In this document: in pieces, positions 7,608 through 56,209 of the stretch
Layout: every line of letters begins with the position of its first letter
How positions within the stretch are numbered: position 1 is the first letter of the stretch
Source of the DNA: Clostridiales bacterium
GTDB lineage: Bacteria; Bacillota; Clostridia; Peptostreptococcales; Anaerovoracaceae
Assembly (NCBI GenBank): GCA_015058145.1
Contig: SVCX01000004.1
Location: 1 to 64,000 of the forward strand
Length of the DNA: 64,000 nt
Direction: 5' to 3'
Made by a program: the position numbers and the translations under genes
Notes under the pieces: model-generated
The model's input: the letters and a program-made list of their open reading frames with translations, nothing else
What the model was told of the DNA's origin: nothing
The model's database searches: none

Positions 7608-8079
7608 AATGCACTTTGACAATTGAATATCCCTTCATCAGGTACTTTCGTTTTGACTGCGAGCATGCGATGACCGGCGCGCCATGATCCTGTGTTCAGG
7701 GGAGCGAGAAACGCAATGAGGATCCAAAAGGCAGGTTGCACCTGCAATTGTGCCATGACCAGCGAAGCGGACAATGATACTTCCGTCCGGCAGCACTAAG
7801 GTGCGGGGCGGCCCGTGGAGATCCTTCGGGGGAGTTCGATTCCCATGAGAGAGCCCAGCAACCTCTCGCCTGATGACAGACCCGGGATGGCCCGGGAAGC
7901 GGACGGAGCGCTGCGAATACTCCGCACATGATACGTCAAGATACTATCGGGGATCAGATCCTTCATTTGATACTGATCTGATCCCCCTGATTCTGAAAAA
8001 ACAGAGTCGGCATACATAGTTGTTTCAAGCACACCTATTTTGTTGTGCAGAGAAACGGCTGTGTATGCCGGCTTTTTTT
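7583..8079 (+). ncRNA. ~500-nt structured non-coding RNA, copy A
   Basis: No plus-strand ORF; consensus promoter upstream, intrinsic terminator downstream; compensatory stem changes relative to copy at 20533-20993. Confidence 0.75.
8008..8079 (+). terminator. Long multi-stem intrinsic terminator of the structured RNA (A)
   Basis: CGGCATACATAG..GTTTC..GCACA..TGTGC..GAAAC..CTGTGTATGCCG followed by T7. Confidence 0.85.
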
Positions 8080-20557: not shown

Positions 20558-20993
20558 AACAAACCTTGACAACTGAATACCCATCATCAGGAACTTTCGT
20601 TTCGACTGCGAGCATGCGATGACCGGCGCGCCATGATCCCGGACCTTCCGGGGGAGCGAGAAACGCTATGAGGATCCAAAAGGGCAGATGGCATCTGCAA
20701 ATGTGCCACGACCAGCGGAGCGGACAATGATACTTCCGTCCGGCCATTTCGGTGGGGGCGGCCCGTGGAGATCCTTCGGGGGGTTCGATTCCCATGAGAG
20801 TGCTGCCCAGTCCAGCAGCCGCCTGATGACAGAGCCGGGAAGGCCCGGCAGCGCAGGTGGATGCGCTTCGAATGGATCCACCTATTACATTACATCAAAG
20901 CCCTGTTATACACATTACAGCTGGCATACATAGTCGTTTGGTAACACCTTTTTTGTGGTGCCATCAAACCGGCTGTGTATGCCGGCTTTTTTT
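20533..20993 (+). ncRNA. ~460-nt structured non-coding RNA, copy B (ends in intrinsic terminator 20922-20993)
   Basis: Same blocks as 7583-8079 with compensatory stem changes; terminator GGCATACATAG..GTTTG..CACC..GGTG..CAAAC..CTGTGTATGCC + T7. Confidence 0.77.
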
Positions 20994-46859: not shown

Positions 46860-47081
46860 TTATTTGCGGTCCAGTATTTTCTTTGCCTGTTCTCTTCTGC
46901 GTTCGTCTTCGTCAGGAAGCATCTCCGCATCCGTCCACTCCTGGACAAATGTTGATTCTTTGCCGCCTGCCGCCTGAGCCTTTGCTTTATTGCTCTTCAT
47001 CATGATGACGAGAGAAACAGCAATTCCGCCCCACAGTCCGATGCACGCGATCAGCATCATTACGATTGCACTTGCGCTCAT
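46860..47081 (-). CDS. metS: Small subunit of NSS transporter (MetS-like)
   Basis: Single-TM 73-aa ORF downstream of an NSS transporter. Confidence 0.72.
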   Translation of the reverse strand: MSASAIVMMLIACIGLWGGIAVSLVIMMKSNKAKAQAAGGKESTFVQEWTDAEMLPDEDERRREQAKKILDRK

Positions 47082-47096
47082 TGTGTTACCTCCTTC

Positions 47097-48599
47097 TTAA
47101 TCATCATATCCGGGAGCATCGTCCGGCTTCTTGTAGAAGCTAGGCTTGCCCTTGGCGAGAGTTAAAACGATCGTTCCGACTACTAGGAACAGGATGAAGA
47201 TGACGCCGATCCAAAGCGGATACACATCATAACCATCTCTGAAGTAAGTGATCAGGTTGGAAACCGTCGTGTAGCCCAGTACGATGACGGTGACGAATTT
47301 CAGGCACCATACCCACCACTTGCCAATGCTGAAGTTGGAATACTCATTGGCAGCTGCTCTGATCTTCTCAGGTTTGAAGAACCATCCGATCAGTACAACT
47401 TCGATAACGCCGCTGGCTACGATGCCGATGTTGTTCGCAACGTAGTCCGCCAGATCCAGGAAGTACAGACCTGCTCTTGTGACGAACAGGAATGATACGA
47501 TGAATGCAGGAACCAGAACGACGGTAACCGCCTTGGTGTGTGACAGTTCCCATTTGTCCTGTACGCCTGTGATGACAGCCTGGATAATGGAGATCAGCGA
47601 AGTGATACCTGCTGTGAACAGGGATACGAAGAACAGTACTCCGAAGAGTGAGTTCAGTGCAGGCAGCGTGCTGATCGCAGTCGGGAATACGACGAACGCC
47701 AGGCCGACGCCTGCAGCAGCAACGTCTTCTACACCGCAGTTCTGAGCGTACGCCATGTAACCGATGATGGAGAAGATGCCGATTCCGGCGAAGATCTCAA
47801 ATCCGTGGTTGGTGCATGCTGTCAGGAATGCAGTATTGACAACGTCTTCTTCCTTAGGCAGGTAGGAGGAATAGCTGATCATAATCGCGAATGCGATGGA
47901 CAAGCTGAAGAATACCTGGCCATAAGCAGCTACCCATACATCCGGCTTCGCGATTGCCGACCAATCCGGTGTAAACATGTAAGCAATACCATCGATTGCG
48001 CCCGGCAGTGTGATTCCTCTGAAGAAGATAACCACTACGCAGAGCAGCAGAATCGGCAGACAGATCTTACATGCGATGTCGATACCTTTGTTGATTCCGC
48101 CGTACATGATGATTGCTACGACGATCCATACGATGAAGAACGGCGCGAGCAGTCCCGGATTGATGCCGCCGACAGTCGTAATGCTGTCAGTAATTTCCAG
48201 TGTCCCCGAGAAGAACGATGTGCTCGTGTCATCTCCCCAGGTACATCCGAAGGCCTTGCCGATGTAGCAGAGTACCCATACGACGATAGCGAAATAGTAA
48301 ACGGTGATCAGGAATGAAATCATAACCTGGAACCAGCCGAGGAACTCAAACTTCGTATTGATCCTTGCCAGTGTGCCAGGAGCGCCTGATCGGTAGGTTT
48401 TCCCTAGCGTGTATTCCAGAATCAGGATAGGAATACCAGCTGTGAGAATTGCAAACAGGTACGGGAAAATAAACGCGCCGCCGCCGTTCGTTGCTGCGAT
48501 ATACGGGAATCTCCACAGATTACCAAGACCTACAGCCGAACCGATTGCAGCGAGGATAAAACCTAGTTTGCTGTTCCATTGAGCTCTCAATTCAGTCAC
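47097..48599 (-). CDS. metP: Sodium-dependent NSS-family transporter (MetP-like)
   Basis: WNSKLGFILAAIGSAVGLGNLWRFPY signature. Confidence 0.88.
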   Translation of the reverse strand: MTELRAQWNSKLGFILAAIGSAVGLGNLWRFPYIAATNGGGAFIFPYLFAILTAGIPILILEYTLGKTYRSGAPGTLARINTKFEFLGWFQVMISFLITVYYFAIVVWVLCYIGKAFGCTWGDDTSTSFFSGTLEITDSITTVGGINPGLLAPFFIVWIVVAIIMYGGINKGIDIACKICLPILLLCVVVIFFRGITLPGAIDGIAYMFTPDWSAIAKPDVWVAAYGQVFFSLSIAFAIMISYSSYLPKEEDVVNTAFLTACTNHGFEIFAGIGIFSIIGYMAYAQNCGVEDVAAAGVGLAFVVFPTAISTLPALNSLFGVLFFVSLFTAGITSLISIIQAVITGVQDKWELSHTKAVTVVLVPAFIVSFLFVTRAGLYFLDLADYVANNIGIVASGVIEVVLIGWFFKPEKIRAAANEYSNFSIGKWWVWCLKFVTVIVLGYTTVSNLITYFRDGYDVYPLWIGVIFILFLVVGTIVLTLAKGKPSFYKKPDDAPGYDD

Positions 48600-49240: not shown

Positions 49241-49645
49241 CTATAGTACTTCAACCCCTGCTTCTCTGAGCTTTGCCTCAGCTCCTTCAATGTCGTCCAC
49301 ACGGAAGACAACGTTCGCGCTTCCAGTAACTTCACCGGTATACGCATACATATACTCGATGTTTACGTTTGCGGATTCCAGCGCCTGCAGAATATCGTAG
49401 AGCGCTCCGGCTTTGTCTTCCATAACGGCGGAAACAACTTCCGTCGTAGTGATGATGTGATCGTCTTCCAGGACCTCCATGGCCTTCTTCGCGTCGGACA
49501 CGATGATTCTCAGAATGCCGAAGTCCCTGACTTCCGCGATAGTCATAGCGCGAAGATTAATGCCTGCCTCTGAAATGCGTTTTACGACTTCGTATAACTT
49601 CCCTGGTTTATTCTCAAGAAATACTGATAACTGTGTAATAGCCAT
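49241..49645 (-). CDS. Tandem ACT-domain amino-acid-binding protein
   Basis: QLSVFLENKPGKLYEVVKRISEAGINLRAM; SAVMEDKAGALYDILQALESANVNIEYMYA. Confidence 0.88.
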   Translation of the reverse strand: MAITQLSVFLENKPGKLYEVVKRISEAGINLRAMTIAEVRDFGILRIIVSDAKKAMEVLEDDHIITTTEVVSAVMEDKAGALYDILQALESANVNIEYMYAYTGEVTGSANVVFRVDDIEGAEAKLREAGVEVL

Positions 49646-51016: not shown

Positions 51017-52576
51017 TTAATCACCCAAATTGTCCATAACCTCAACGGTTCTCTGTTCATGGTAGCAGGTGAAGATCTCATCCGTATTGTCCGGGATGCC
51101 TTTGCGTGTGAGAGCCGTTACGATTGGCACAATGACCAATCCTCCAACCATTGCGAACACACCTGAGTAAAGCGAATTCCTGAACACGAAGCTCAGCAGC
51201 GGGCTTCCAGCTACACTGATCATCTCCAGAGAAATGAACAGCTGAGTAATTTCAAGGAAGCACGCCCAGATGAAGCAACATGCTACCGCCGCCTTCGAAA
51301 TGTGCTTTGAGTACAGCCCATATAAGAACGGTGCCAGGAAGGATCCTGCCAACGCTCCCCAGGAGATTCCCATCATCTGCGCGATGAACAAGCTTTTCGC
51401 ATGTGCCTGCTTAATCGCTATAATTGCTGAAATGATTACAAATATAACGATAAATGCACGCATGATGACGACTTTCTTTCTCTCATCGATTGGATTCCTC
51501 TTCAGTGGCGCGATAAAGTCCAGCGTGATCGTCGATGAACTTGTCAGAACCAGCGATGACAGTGTGGACATGGACGCGGAGAGAACCAGAACGATGATGA
51601 TTCCGATGATAACCGGTGAAACCGTGGAAAGCATGCTTGGAATGACAGCGTCGAACCCTTCCGTTTCCACATCGATATCATACAGCCTTCCGAATCCTCC
51701 AAGGAAATAACACCCGCCTGCGACAATCAGTGCGAAAAATGTCGATATGACTGTGCCCTTCTTTATCGCATCCTCATTCGTGATGGCATAGAATTTACCG
51801 ACCATCTGTGGCAGTCCCCAAGTTCCCAGAGATGTCAGCATGATGACGAAGAACAGGAATCCCGGATCGGCACCGAGGAATGATGCATACTGCCAGCCTC
51901 CGTTTTCTCCCGTAGCCAACGACTCCATCGCGGCGTTCAGGCCTCCGTTATCATGCAGTACTGCCAGAATGACCGCAACGATTCCGATTAACATGATGCA
52001 ACCCTGAATGAAGTCATTCGTTGCCGTCGCCATGTAGCCTCCAAGTACTACATAGATGCAGGTCAGCACCGCCATAACCACAACGCAGACCGCGTAATCA
52101 AGTCCTGGGAATGCGATTGCGAAGAGCCTTGAAAGTCCGTTGTACAGAGACGCCGTATACGGGATCAGAAAGATGAAGGTGATAACTGATGCCGCAATTC
52201 TGAGCTTCTGGGATCCGAATCTCGATCCGAAGAAGTCAGGCATGGTGCGGCTGTCCAGATGCTGCGTCATGATTCTCGTGCGTCTTCCCAGGATCAACCA
52301 TGCGAGGAGTGAACCGATAAAGGCGTTCCCCAAGCCGATCCATGTGGACGCGAGTCCGAAGTTCCATCCGAACTGTCCGGCATATCCAACGAAGATAACT
52401 GCCGAAAAGTAGGAGGTGCCAAATGCAAAAGCACTCAGCCAAGGCCCTACGGATCTGGAACCAAGAACGAACCCTGTCACGCTTCTGGCATGCCTTCTTG
52501 TCCTTATGCCTATCGTAATCATGATCGCGAAGAAGATGATGATAAGCACCAAGGTCAAAGCTGTAGTAGTGTTCAT
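51017..52576 (-). CDS. Sodium:solute symporter (SSS family)
   Basis: Multi-TM; GFVLGSRSVGPWLSAFAFGTSYFSAVIFVGYAGQFG. Confidence 0.88.
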   Translation of the reverse strand: MNTTTALTLVLIIIFFAIMITIGIRTRRHARSVTGFVLGSRSVGPWLSAFAFGTSYFSAVIFVGYAGQFGWNFGLASTWIGLGNAFIGSLLAWLILGRRTRIMTQHLDSRTMPDFFGSRFGSQKLRIAASVITFIFLIPYTASLYNGLSRLFAIAFPGLDYAVCVVVMAVLTCIYVVLGGYMATATNDFIQGCIMLIGIVAVILAVLHDNGGLNAAMESLATGENGGWQYASFLGADPGFLFFVIMLTSLGTWGLPQMVGKFYAITNEDAIKKGTVISTFFALIVAGGCYFLGGFGRLYDIDVETEGFDAVIPSMLSTVSPVIIGIIIVLVLSASMSTLSSLVLTSSSTITLDFIAPLKRNPIDERKKVVIMRAFIVIFVIISAIIAIKQAHAKSLFIAQMMGISWGALAGSFLAPFLYGLYSKHISKAAVACCFIWACFLEITQLFISLEMISVAGSPLLSFVFRNSLYSGVFAMVGGLVIVPIVTALTRKGIPDNTDEIFTCYHEQRTVEVMDNLGD

Positions 52577-52624
52577 AAAAAGTCCTTTCTTGTATAAAAT
52601 AATAATAATTGACAGTAACAGTAA

Positions 52625-52656
52625 AAGAAAAAGCGCCTCAGGTTAACCTGTGACGC
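52625..52656 (-). terminator. Attenuator terminator upstream of SSS gene
   Basis: Reverse strand GCGTCACAGGTTAACCTGAGGCGC-TTTTTCTTTT. Confidence 0.82.
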
Positions 52657-52709
52657 TTCGAACTTTACTAAATTGTTTTAGCTACTCATTCTAACATCGC
52701 AAATTAACC

Positions 52710-52778
52710 TTACTGCCCCCCAGTAAAGCCGAAGTAAAAGTAGTAGTATGCATTTGCGATGTTCATTGTTTTAGCCAT
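52710..52778 (-). CDS. Leader peptide MAKTMNIANAYYYFYFGFTGGQ
   Basis: 22-codon ORF with AGGAG RBS; run of Tyr/Phe codons; followed by intrinsic terminator. Confidence 0.82.
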   Translation of the reverse strand: MAKTMNIANAYYYFYFGFTGGQ

Positions 52779-52823
52779 TTGTATCTCCTGCGCGCTCACT
52801 TGCACGCTTTAATTACGTAAACT

Positions 52824-52852
52824 AAACTATCACACTTGCAAAGGCATGTCAA
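52824..52852 (-). promoter_or_regulatory. Sigma70 promoter of Tyr/Phe leader
   Basis: Reverse strand TTGACA - 17 bp - TAGTTT. Confidence 0.72.
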
Positions 52853-54512: not shown

Positions 54513-54572
54513 ATGGTCATTACAAGAGTTATGACAAATGCATACTGGTGGCGCGGCAGTTTTACAACCTAA
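54513..54572 (+). CDS. Trp leader peptide MVITRVMTNAYWWRGSFTT
   Basis: 19-codon ORF with AGGAG RBS and tandem Trp codons. Confidence 0.85.
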   Translation: MVITRVMTNAYWWRGSFTT

Positions 54573-54637
54573 GAGTGTAAGGCCTGTTGGCGTTGCGTAG
54601 AATCTAAACGGATAAGACACATAGAAACAGATATACA

Positions 54638-54670
54638 AGCGGCACAGGTTAACCTGGAGCCGCTGTTTTA
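54638..54670 (+). terminator. Trp attenuator terminator
   Basis: AGCGGCACAGGTTAACCTGGAGCCGCT-GTTTTATT. Confidence 0.85.
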
Positions 54671-54683
54671 TTAGGAGGATGAA

Positions 54684-54835: not shown

Positions 54836-56209
54836 ATGACTAAGGAACAGATTCCATATAAGATATACCTCGAAGAAGATGAGATGCCGAAGGCATGGTA
54901 CAACCTGCGGGCGGACATGATCAACAAGCCTGCCCCGCTCATCCATCCGGGAACCCATCAGCCGATGACCCTTGAAGAACTTTCGCCAGTATTCTGCGAA
55001 GAACTCTGCAAGCAGGAACTGAACAACACGGATCCGTTCATCGAGATTCCGCAGGAAATCCGGGATTTCTACAAGATGTACAGACCGTCTCCTCTCATCA
55101 GGGCTTACTGCCTGGAAGAGAAACTGGGAACACCGGCGAAGATCTACTACAAGTTCGAGGGAAACAACACCAGCGGAAGCCACAAGCTGAACTCTGCCAT
55201 CGCCCAGGCCTACTACGCCAAGAAGCAGGGTCTGAAAGGCGTTACGACGGAGACCGGTGCCGGTCAGTGGGGAACGGCCCTTTCCATGGCCTGCTCCTAT
55301 TTCGATCTCGACTGCAAAGTCTTCATGGTCAAGGTGTCTTATGAGCAGAAGCCATTCAGAAGAGAAGTTATGCGTACCTACGGCGCTTCCGTGACACCGT
55401 CACCGTCTGAAACAACGCAGATCGGAAAGAAGATTCTCGAAGCCCATCCTGGAACCACCGGAAGCCTGGGCTGCGCTATTTCAGAAGCCGTTGAAGTCGC
55501 TACGTCAACGCCGGGCTACAGATATGTACTGGGAAGCGTTCTGAATCAGGTACTGCTTCACCAGTCCATCATCGGCCTTGAGACTAAGGCAGCTCTGGAC
55601 AAGTACGGTATCAAACCTGATATGATCATCGGCTGCGCCGGCGGCGGATCCAATTTGGGCGGACTCATTGCTCCGTTCATGGGAGAGAAGATCAAGGGCA
55701 ACGCCGACTACCGCATCATCGCAGTCGAGCCGCAGTCCTGTCCAAGCTTCACCAGAGGTAAATACGCATATGACTTCGCTGACACAGGAATGGTTTGTCC
55801 GCTGGCCAAGATGTACACTCTCGGCAGCAACTTCATCCCTGCCCCGAACCACGCAGGCGGTCTGAGATACCACGGCATGAGCCCTGTACTTTCACAGCTC
55901 TACGACGACGGTCTCATGGAAGCCATCGCTGTTCCGCAGACAGAAGTGTTCGCAGCGGCCGAGGAATTCGCCAGAGTCGAGGGAATCCTCCCTGCTCCGG
56001 AAAGTTCACACGCCATTAAGGTCGCCCTGGACGAGGCGAAGAAATGCGTTGAGACCGGCGAGGAAAAGACCATCGTATTCGGCCTGACCGGAACCGGCTA
56101 CTTCGATATGGTCGCTTACGAAAAGTACCACAACGGCGTTATGGACGATTACATTCCAACCGATGAAGAACTTGAGAAATACTTTGCAACATTGCCTCCA
56201 GTTGAATAG
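54836..56209 (+). CDS. TrpB2-type tryptophan synthase beta chain-like protein
   Basis: RPSPLIRAYCLEEKLGTPAKIYYKFEGNNTSGSHKLNSA; VTTETGAGQWGTALS; GCAGGGSNLGG. Confidence 0.93.
   Translation: MTKEQIPYKIYLEEDEMPKAWYNLRADMINKPAPLIHPGTHQPMTLEELSPVFCEELCKQELNNTDPFIEIPQEIRDFYKMYRPSPLIRAYCLEEKLGTPAKIYYKFEGNNTSGSHKLNSAIAQAYYAKKQGLKGVTTETGAGQWGTALSMACSYFDLDCKVFMVKVSYEQKPFRREVMRTYGASVTPSPSETTQIGKKILEAHPGTTGSLGCAISEAVEVATSTPGYRYVLGSVLNQVLLHQSIIGLETKAALDKYGIKPDMIIGCAGGGSNLGGLIAPFMGEKIKGNADYRIIAVEPQSCPSFTRGKYAYDFADTGMVCPLAKMYTLGSNFIPAPNHAGGLRYHGMSPVLSQLYDDGLMEAIAVPQTEVFAAAEEFARVEGILPAPESSHAIKVALDEAKKCVETGEEKTIVFGLTGTGYFDMVAYEKYHNGVMDDYIPTDEELEKYFATLPPVE

Follow-up and report, generated by a model that had tools for sequence, protein, structure and literature searches.

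The trp, pheA and pheST leaders of enterobacteria (Rfam Trp_leader and Phe_leader) combine a run of the regulated codons with protector, antiterminator and terminator helices and an intrinsic terminator. T-boxes bind tRNA directly, with no requirement for translation; leader attenuators and T-boxes alike raise expression when charged tRNA is low. Searches of Rfam and the literature found Tyr control in Firmicutes described by T-box and not by Tyr-codon leader peptides, and a literature search for tyrosine-codon attenuators found nothing direct. Tyr T-boxes have been described before NhaC-family transporters (PMC2494555). In Acholeplasma, the uORFC-13-1 motif, which lies before aroF and consists of a short ORF with at least one Phe codon and a terminator, has been proposed to act by attenuation (PMC8632094).

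Here we analyse a leader at 52.6–52.9 kb of a 64-kb stretch of clostridial DNA (the window). Like the enterobacterial attenuators, it has a regulated-codon run, three helices and an intrinsic terminator; unlike them, it is Tyr-dominated, belongs to an uncultured Clostridia host, precedes genes for a symporter, PaaK and an ACT protein, and matches no Rfam leader. The uORFC-13-1 motif resembles this type of leader in placing a short Phe-codon ORF and a terminator ahead of aroF but, as far as its description allows comparison, differs in lineage, in lacking Tyr runs and in having no link to a transporter or PaaK (PMC8632094). Tyr T-box leaders (RF00230) share with the window leader the signal of low charged tRNA-Tyr, the use of antitermination and the presence of homologues of the window transporter downstream, whereas the window site is without a T-box and is predicted to use a translated-leader design. 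We consider it probable that the element is a Tyr/Phe-tRNA-sensing attenuator on an operon that most likely raises the supply of Tyr and Phe by salvage of aryl acids. The features of the locus are as follows.

52824..52852, minus strand: sigma-70-type promoter TTGACA-17-TAGTTT with an extended −10 (TG); read from the sequence, kept in relatives
52710..52778, minus strand: leader peptide ORF MAKTMNIANAYYYFYFGFTGGQ, ending in a stop codon and preceded by AGGAG; read from the sequence, aromatic run kept in relatives
52731..52748, minus strand: control codons TAC TAC TAC TTT TAC TTC (YYYFYF); read from the sequence
52752..52763, minus strand: segment 1 (protector arm) AACATCGCAAAT; helix 1:2 pair counts in relatives
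52693..52710, minus strand: segment 2 AGGTTAATTTGCGATGTT, partner of segment 1 or segment 3; fold and helix pair counts
52640..52657, minus strand: segment 3 (antiterminator partner) AGCGTCACAGGTTAACCT, inside the terminator; helix 2:3 pair counts
52622..52658, minus strand: intrinsic terminator (helix 3:4) and T tract; sequence and helix 3:4 pair counts
51017..52576, minus strand: sodium:solute symporter (SSF), first gene of the operon; Pfam PF00474
49658..50965, minus strand: phenylacetate-CoA ligase family protein (PaaK); TIGR02155, E=1e-155
49241..49645, minus strand: ACT-domain pair protein; PF19571 match, behind paaK in relatives

The preliminary description of this DNA had placed a promoter, a ribosome-binding site, the leader peptide, a 12-bp inverted repeat and a terminator here, and all were found at the coordinates that it gave. 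TTGACA (52852-52847) is separated by a 17-nt spacer from TAGTTT (52829-52824), which is a weak −10 (3/6 match to the consensus) with TG one base upstream, making it an extended −10; in the relatives L001, L002, L004 and L086 the promoter element is identical in placement. AGGAG lies 7 nt from the leader ATG at 52778, and the YYYFYF leader run occurs only once in the host genome. Segment 1, AACATCGCAAAT (52763-52752), is perfectly complementary over 12 bp to ATTTGCGATGTT (52704-52693), and segment 2 overlaps the final base of the leader stop codon. The terminator hairpin AAGCGTCACAGGTTAACCTGAGGCGCTT (52658-52631) and the T-rich tract behind it lie between the leader and the first gene; an A.A mismatch in the hairpin stem caused a simple terminator scan to overlook it.

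Folding of the free leader RNA predicts helix 1:2 plus the terminator. When the ribosome footprint and segment 1 are omitted and segment 4 is left unmade, the RNA is predicted to fold into an antiterminator of 11 + 6 bp between segments 2 and 3: 11 bp join AGGUUAAUUUG to CAGGUUAACCU and, past a single mismatch, 6 bp join GAUGUU to AGCGUC. The pairing of AGGTTAA with TTAACCT that had been put forward as the antiterminator is thus present, but at 7 bp it was drawn too short. We envisage that, without stalling, segment 2 would be occupied, either by segment 1 or by the terminating ribosome, leaving the terminator free to form and the operon off. If Tyr or Phe were scarce, a ribosome would stall in YYYFYF and cover segment 1, and segments 2 and 3 would then pair before segment 4 is made, allowing read-through into transporter–paaK–ACT.

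A chance origin of the leader was considered and is ruled out by a shuffle test and a strict leader scan. The 213-nt leader folds with z = −3.84, and 0/200 shuffles were equally good. The scan accepted an ATG ORF of 10-45 aa with a Shine–Dalgarno sequence, at least 5/6 residues F/Y and a terminator downstream. Across the 64-kb window its sole match was the window leader; across 887 kb of related loci it gave 12 matches, every one of which immediately precedes the orthologous transporter or the operon that contains it. An Rfam scan of the 64-kb window at gathering thresholds gave no match at 52.6–52.9 kb to an amino-acid leader, T-box or riboswitch, which also rules out a T-box at this site.

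With the transporter as query we obtained 80 loci, all in genomes of Clostridia of the gut and rumen. A Tyr-rich leader lies immediately upstream of 15 transporter genes, that of the window included, and three more leaders precede an acyl-CoA synthetase gene that itself precedes the transporter. The aromatic run is kept in relatives while codons and flanks change, so that the leader is conserved, as the proposed check of homologous loci for Tyr/Phe runs had asked. Across 12 aligned leaders, 87.6% of helix 1:2 is paired and three of its pairs are changed on both sides; for helix 2:3 the values are 93.6% and four pairs, with 0/500 shuffles scoring as high, and for helix 3:4 they are 97.7% and four pairs. 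When the arms were slid as a control, pairing of 1:2 and 2:3 fell to roughly half the observed level or lower, and that of 3:4 did not exceed 61%. Double-sided changes in L006 and L013 convert ATCGCAAA/TTTGCGAT to ATTGCAAA/TTTGCAAT and GGTTAA/TTAACC to GGATAA/TTATCC. The claim of a Tyr/Phe leader-peptide attenuator with alternative structures is thereby borne out by conservation and by covariation of the helices in 12 related leaders. Because three overlapping, mutually exclusive helices covary and the aromatic codons are kept, we conclude, on sequence grounds, that the element is a classical ribosome-mediated transcription attenuator, in which stalling is presumed.

The extensive RNA structure might instead be read as a riboswitch-like device, whose stems would be the binding site for a protein or small molecule and whose ORF would be incidental. 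We regard this as very improbable, given that the ORF has a Shine–Dalgarno sequence and keeps its aromatic run through changing codons and flanks, that codon identity (Tyr, Phe or Trp) tracks the downstream genes, and that no Rfam riboswitch matches. For the ribosome-mediated attenuator, the position of the leader stop bears on how segment 2 is masked: in the window and L082 the stop comes just before segment 2, and in most relatives it lies beyond, so that segment 2 is coding too (RVNLRC). We infer that a ribosome completing the leader peptide should mask segment 2 at either stop position. At one site (L009, upstream of position 1030; also G041:C92), before a trpB2–transporter–paaK–ACT operon, only the terminator is left, the leader having been lost along with segments 1 and 2, and the attenuator appears to have decayed. 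In L044, a contig titled Spirochaetia, the transporter has a YYYYY leader typical of Clostridia, which reflects either inter-phylum transfer or wrong binning.

Among the more distant members of the transporter family, many have a T-box and no leader; the T-box lies 60-100 nt upstream of the gene or, where an acyl-CoA synthetase gene stands first in the operon, ahead of that gene. In all 18 of the T-boxes read, upstream of a homologous transporter or its operon, the specifier is UAC (Tyr), and since these T-boxes read Tyr independently of the leaders, we take Tyr to be the main signal for the transporter. Within the window's genus, 25 genomes contain the transporter; a Tyr leader occurs in eight of them and a T-box-like element in 14, mostly with a match to a GAAUAC specifier. 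In a tree of the transporters, the leader-bearing members lie to the same side of one well supported branch, and the acyl-CoA synthetase operons mark a second origin of the leader. Since leader and T-box transporters fall in different subclades, they represent two devices on one family rather than a demonstrable replacement of one by the other at the same locus. One transporter family in one genus is thus served by two unrelated RNA devices reading the same tRNA.

The link between transporter and Tyr/Phe made in the preliminary description accordingly stands as regards the signal. The SSF symporter scores 187 bits against PutP (TIGR02121; cut-off 515) and falls below the cut-offs of other curated NCBIfam families too, and none of the curated families recognises it as a tyrosine transporter. 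Judging from sequence, it possibly imports Tyr itself, and import of a precursor of Tyr, for example an aryl acid, fits equally well. The leader thus provides a substrate prediction for this SSF transporter family.

The codons of the leaders vary with the genes that follow. Leaders before the transporter only are nearly pure Tyr, and those before transporter–paaK–ACT carry Tyr plus Phe (Mann–Whitney p=1.7e-4, for related sequences uncorrected for relatedness). The single leader found directly before paaK–ACT, in G002, is Phe only (FTFNFSFFFSF). Leaders of trpB2 have WW or WWW runs, those of trpB2–transporter–paaK are mixed (FWWFWFRF; YWYFYF), and those of aroF–tyrA have Tyr plus Phe. This pattern was noticed post hoc among related sequences, with a single case (G002) in the class of paaK alone. 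A broader rule, by which any PaaK lacking the transporter would have a leader with Phe alone, was dropped: G016 and G060 have the transporter after all, and G044 and G056, when tested, have no leader, which leaves G002.

The nearly pure Tyr of the transporter-only leaders, together with lone transporters behind Tyr T-boxes, fits a simpler account of the same attenuator, in which the transporter is a plain importer of tyrosine (or aromatic amino acids), PaaK and ACT ride along or handle Phe, and there is no reductive aryl-acid route to Tyr. T-box-controlled Tyr transporters are known (NhaC family, PMC2494555), and leader genomes without prephenate enzymes could be Tyr-importing auxotrophs. Yet transporters of relatives are found inside acyl-CoA synthetase–iorAB–paaK operons, and in two (L020 and L039) one Tyr T-box precedes the whole set, acyl-CoA synthetase–transporter–iorA–iorB–paaK, with an ACT gene after; the SSF member is, moreover, the protein that curated families do not identify as a tyrosine transporter. 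We hold plain import to be a serious alternative, though the less probable one.

The 12 leaders were made into a covariance model, with which 49 genomes of the genus and then 297 of the order were searched. In the genus it matches the transporter–PaaK leaders and, more weakly, leaders before aroF–tyrA and trpB2. All further matches in the order lie within the same family (Anaerovoracaceae in the source lineage), and in 15 of the 17 loci read a Tyr/Phe-rich leader precedes aroF–tyrA. Of the other two, L195 also adjoins aroF–tyrA, its leader not having been picked out by the automated reading, and L207 (1498 onward) has a six-Tyr leader, MMRTNSFAAEYYYYYYHRAEGCCFAV, and a terminator-like sequence downstream, before a gene of the tryptophanase / tyrosine phenol-lyase family. 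The L207 leader could reflect a Tyr-making use of that enzyme. Because the model finds homologous leaders before aroF–tyrA, we assign the window attenuator, by homology, to a predicted Tyr/Phe biosynthesis regulon of this bacterial family. The aroF–tyrA leaders apparently lie outside any Rfam family, judging from the missing Rfam match of the window's own element. Leaders with Tyr/Phe runs before aroF–tyrA occur in several genera of the family (L154-L166, L191-L206; e.g. MRNFFFAAEYYYFYFFYLMKKR...), and that of L191 carries Trp codons too (IWYWYYF).

The model (R1) also found a related attenuator in the window itself (E=5e-5), and this has Trp codons.

54513..54674, plus strand: Trp-codon attenuator related to the Tyr/Phe leader, with leader peptide MVITRVMTNAYWWRGSFTT and its stop codon at 54513-54572 and terminator GCGGCACAGGTTAACCTGGAGCCGC at 54639-54663
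54836-56209, plus strand: trpB2-like gene, behind the Trp-codon attenuator

The counterpart of this leader in relatives is MVIIKSMTNGYWWWRSFTTDKL. The arrangement suggests that Trp starvation governs the synthesis of Trp from indole.

Whether the transporter–paaK–ACT operon builds or breaks down aromatic amino acids was then considered. PaaK scores 518 bits against TIGR02155 (cut-off 646), a whole-length homology that is family-like without assigning a substrate, and its nearest solved structures are phenylacetate-CoA ligases. The ACT-domain pair protein is likely an amino-acid sensor. Conversion of phenylacetate to Phe is known from rumen cultures (PMC7356843), and in M. maripaludis the synthesis of aromatic amino acids draws on aryl acids (PMC4162585, citing Porat et al.). 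A switch opened by starvation makes the anabolic reading economical: arylacetate, CoA ester, reductive carboxylation by indolepyruvate:ferredoxin oxidoreductase (IOR), transamination. On this scheme the symporter would bring in Tyr or a Tyr precursor, PaaK would activate arylacetates (phenylacetate, 4-hydroxyphenylacetate) to CoA esters, IOR would reductively carboxylate these to arylpyruvates, and transamination would yield Phe and Tyr, with the ACT protein perhaps providing feedback. It has in common with the route of methanogens and rumen bacteria, in which IOR runs in reverse, an aryl-CoA synthetase, IOR and aryl acids as precursors (PMC4162585, PMC7356843), and differs in being deduced here from gene content and regulation alone.

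Elsewhere the host genome has an iorA–iorB–paaK2–aminotransferase cluster, so that, with the window PaaK, genes for the whole aryl-acid route are present. A search before this cluster found no attenuator, and many iorAB–paaK operons of relatives have no recognisable one; a literature search found no paper tying the aryl-acid route to an attenuator or T-box. Most genomes keep chorismate synthase, and in 27/31 IOR alpha scores above the cut-off. Prephenate dehydratase (PDT) went undetected in 10 of the 12 leader–PaaK genomes of the genus and has no match in the host genome, which is 80% complete; prephenate dehydrogenase (PDH) above the cut-off is missing from 6/7 of the leader genomes first found. 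Both enzymes are present in the leader–PaaK genomes G004 and G015, so salvage is not merely a substitute for the prephenate branch. Presence of a close PaaK orthologue is associated with PDT absence among all 49 genomes (p=0.007) and less so among those at least 90% complete (p=0.14), the genomes being mutually related MAGs of 68-100% completeness. As proof of salvage, PDT absence was therefore set aside; with an association weak after completeness filtering, it is suggestive at most.

The preliminary description had assigned the CoA ligase and ACT protein to aromatic amino-acid catabolism. In such a scheme Tyr and Phe would be imported and oxidized via arylpyruvate to arylacetyl-CoA, the CoA ligase would gain ATP, and the leader would be a brake. 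IOR and CoA ligases can work in amino-acid fermentation in other organisms, but AMP-forming ligases favour CoA-ester formation, and a biosynthetic role has been suggested for gut IOR by recent enzymology on a Bacteroides enzyme (PMC13285125). Expression at low charged tRNA, from leader or Tyr T-box, is the opposite of what catabolism needs, and homologous leaders control aroF–tyrA. We think catabolism improbable: starvation-type control, the aroF–tyrA regulon and missing PDT disfavour it, a salvage role for the CoA ligase and ACT protein is the better reading, and the metabolic direction first proposed for the ligase should probably be reversed. The evidence suggests that the operon helps to obtain Tyr and Phe, not to degrade them, where we infer both flux direction and substrate.

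More broadly, we lean towards the view that uncultured gut and rumen Clostridia possess an uncatalogued family of Tyr/Phe(/Trp) leader attenuators controlling both de novo aroF–tyrA and arylacetate salvage (PaaK, reverse IOR), with a codon mix matching downstream products (Tyr for the transporter, Phe for PaaK, Trp for trpB2). If true, this would establish that the PaaK/IOR module of these gut bacteria runs anabolically. The question of building or breaking by PaaK and IOR in gut anaerobes was raised for Bacteroides in 2026 (PMC13285125); a starvation-type attenuator common to aroF–tyrA, and Tyr T-boxes on the PaaK/IOR module of relatives, are evidence for the building direction that is independent of enzyme kinetics.

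Downstream of the ACT gene (46860-48599, minus strand) lies a gene for a sodium:neurotransmitter symporter, which adjoins the operon in close relatives too, and then one for a small MaAIMP_sms protein (methionine/alanine importer small subunit). Elsewhere in the window, two pemK RNA motifs (RF02913) score above the gathering threshold, at 7771-7848 and 20724-20797 on the plus strand.
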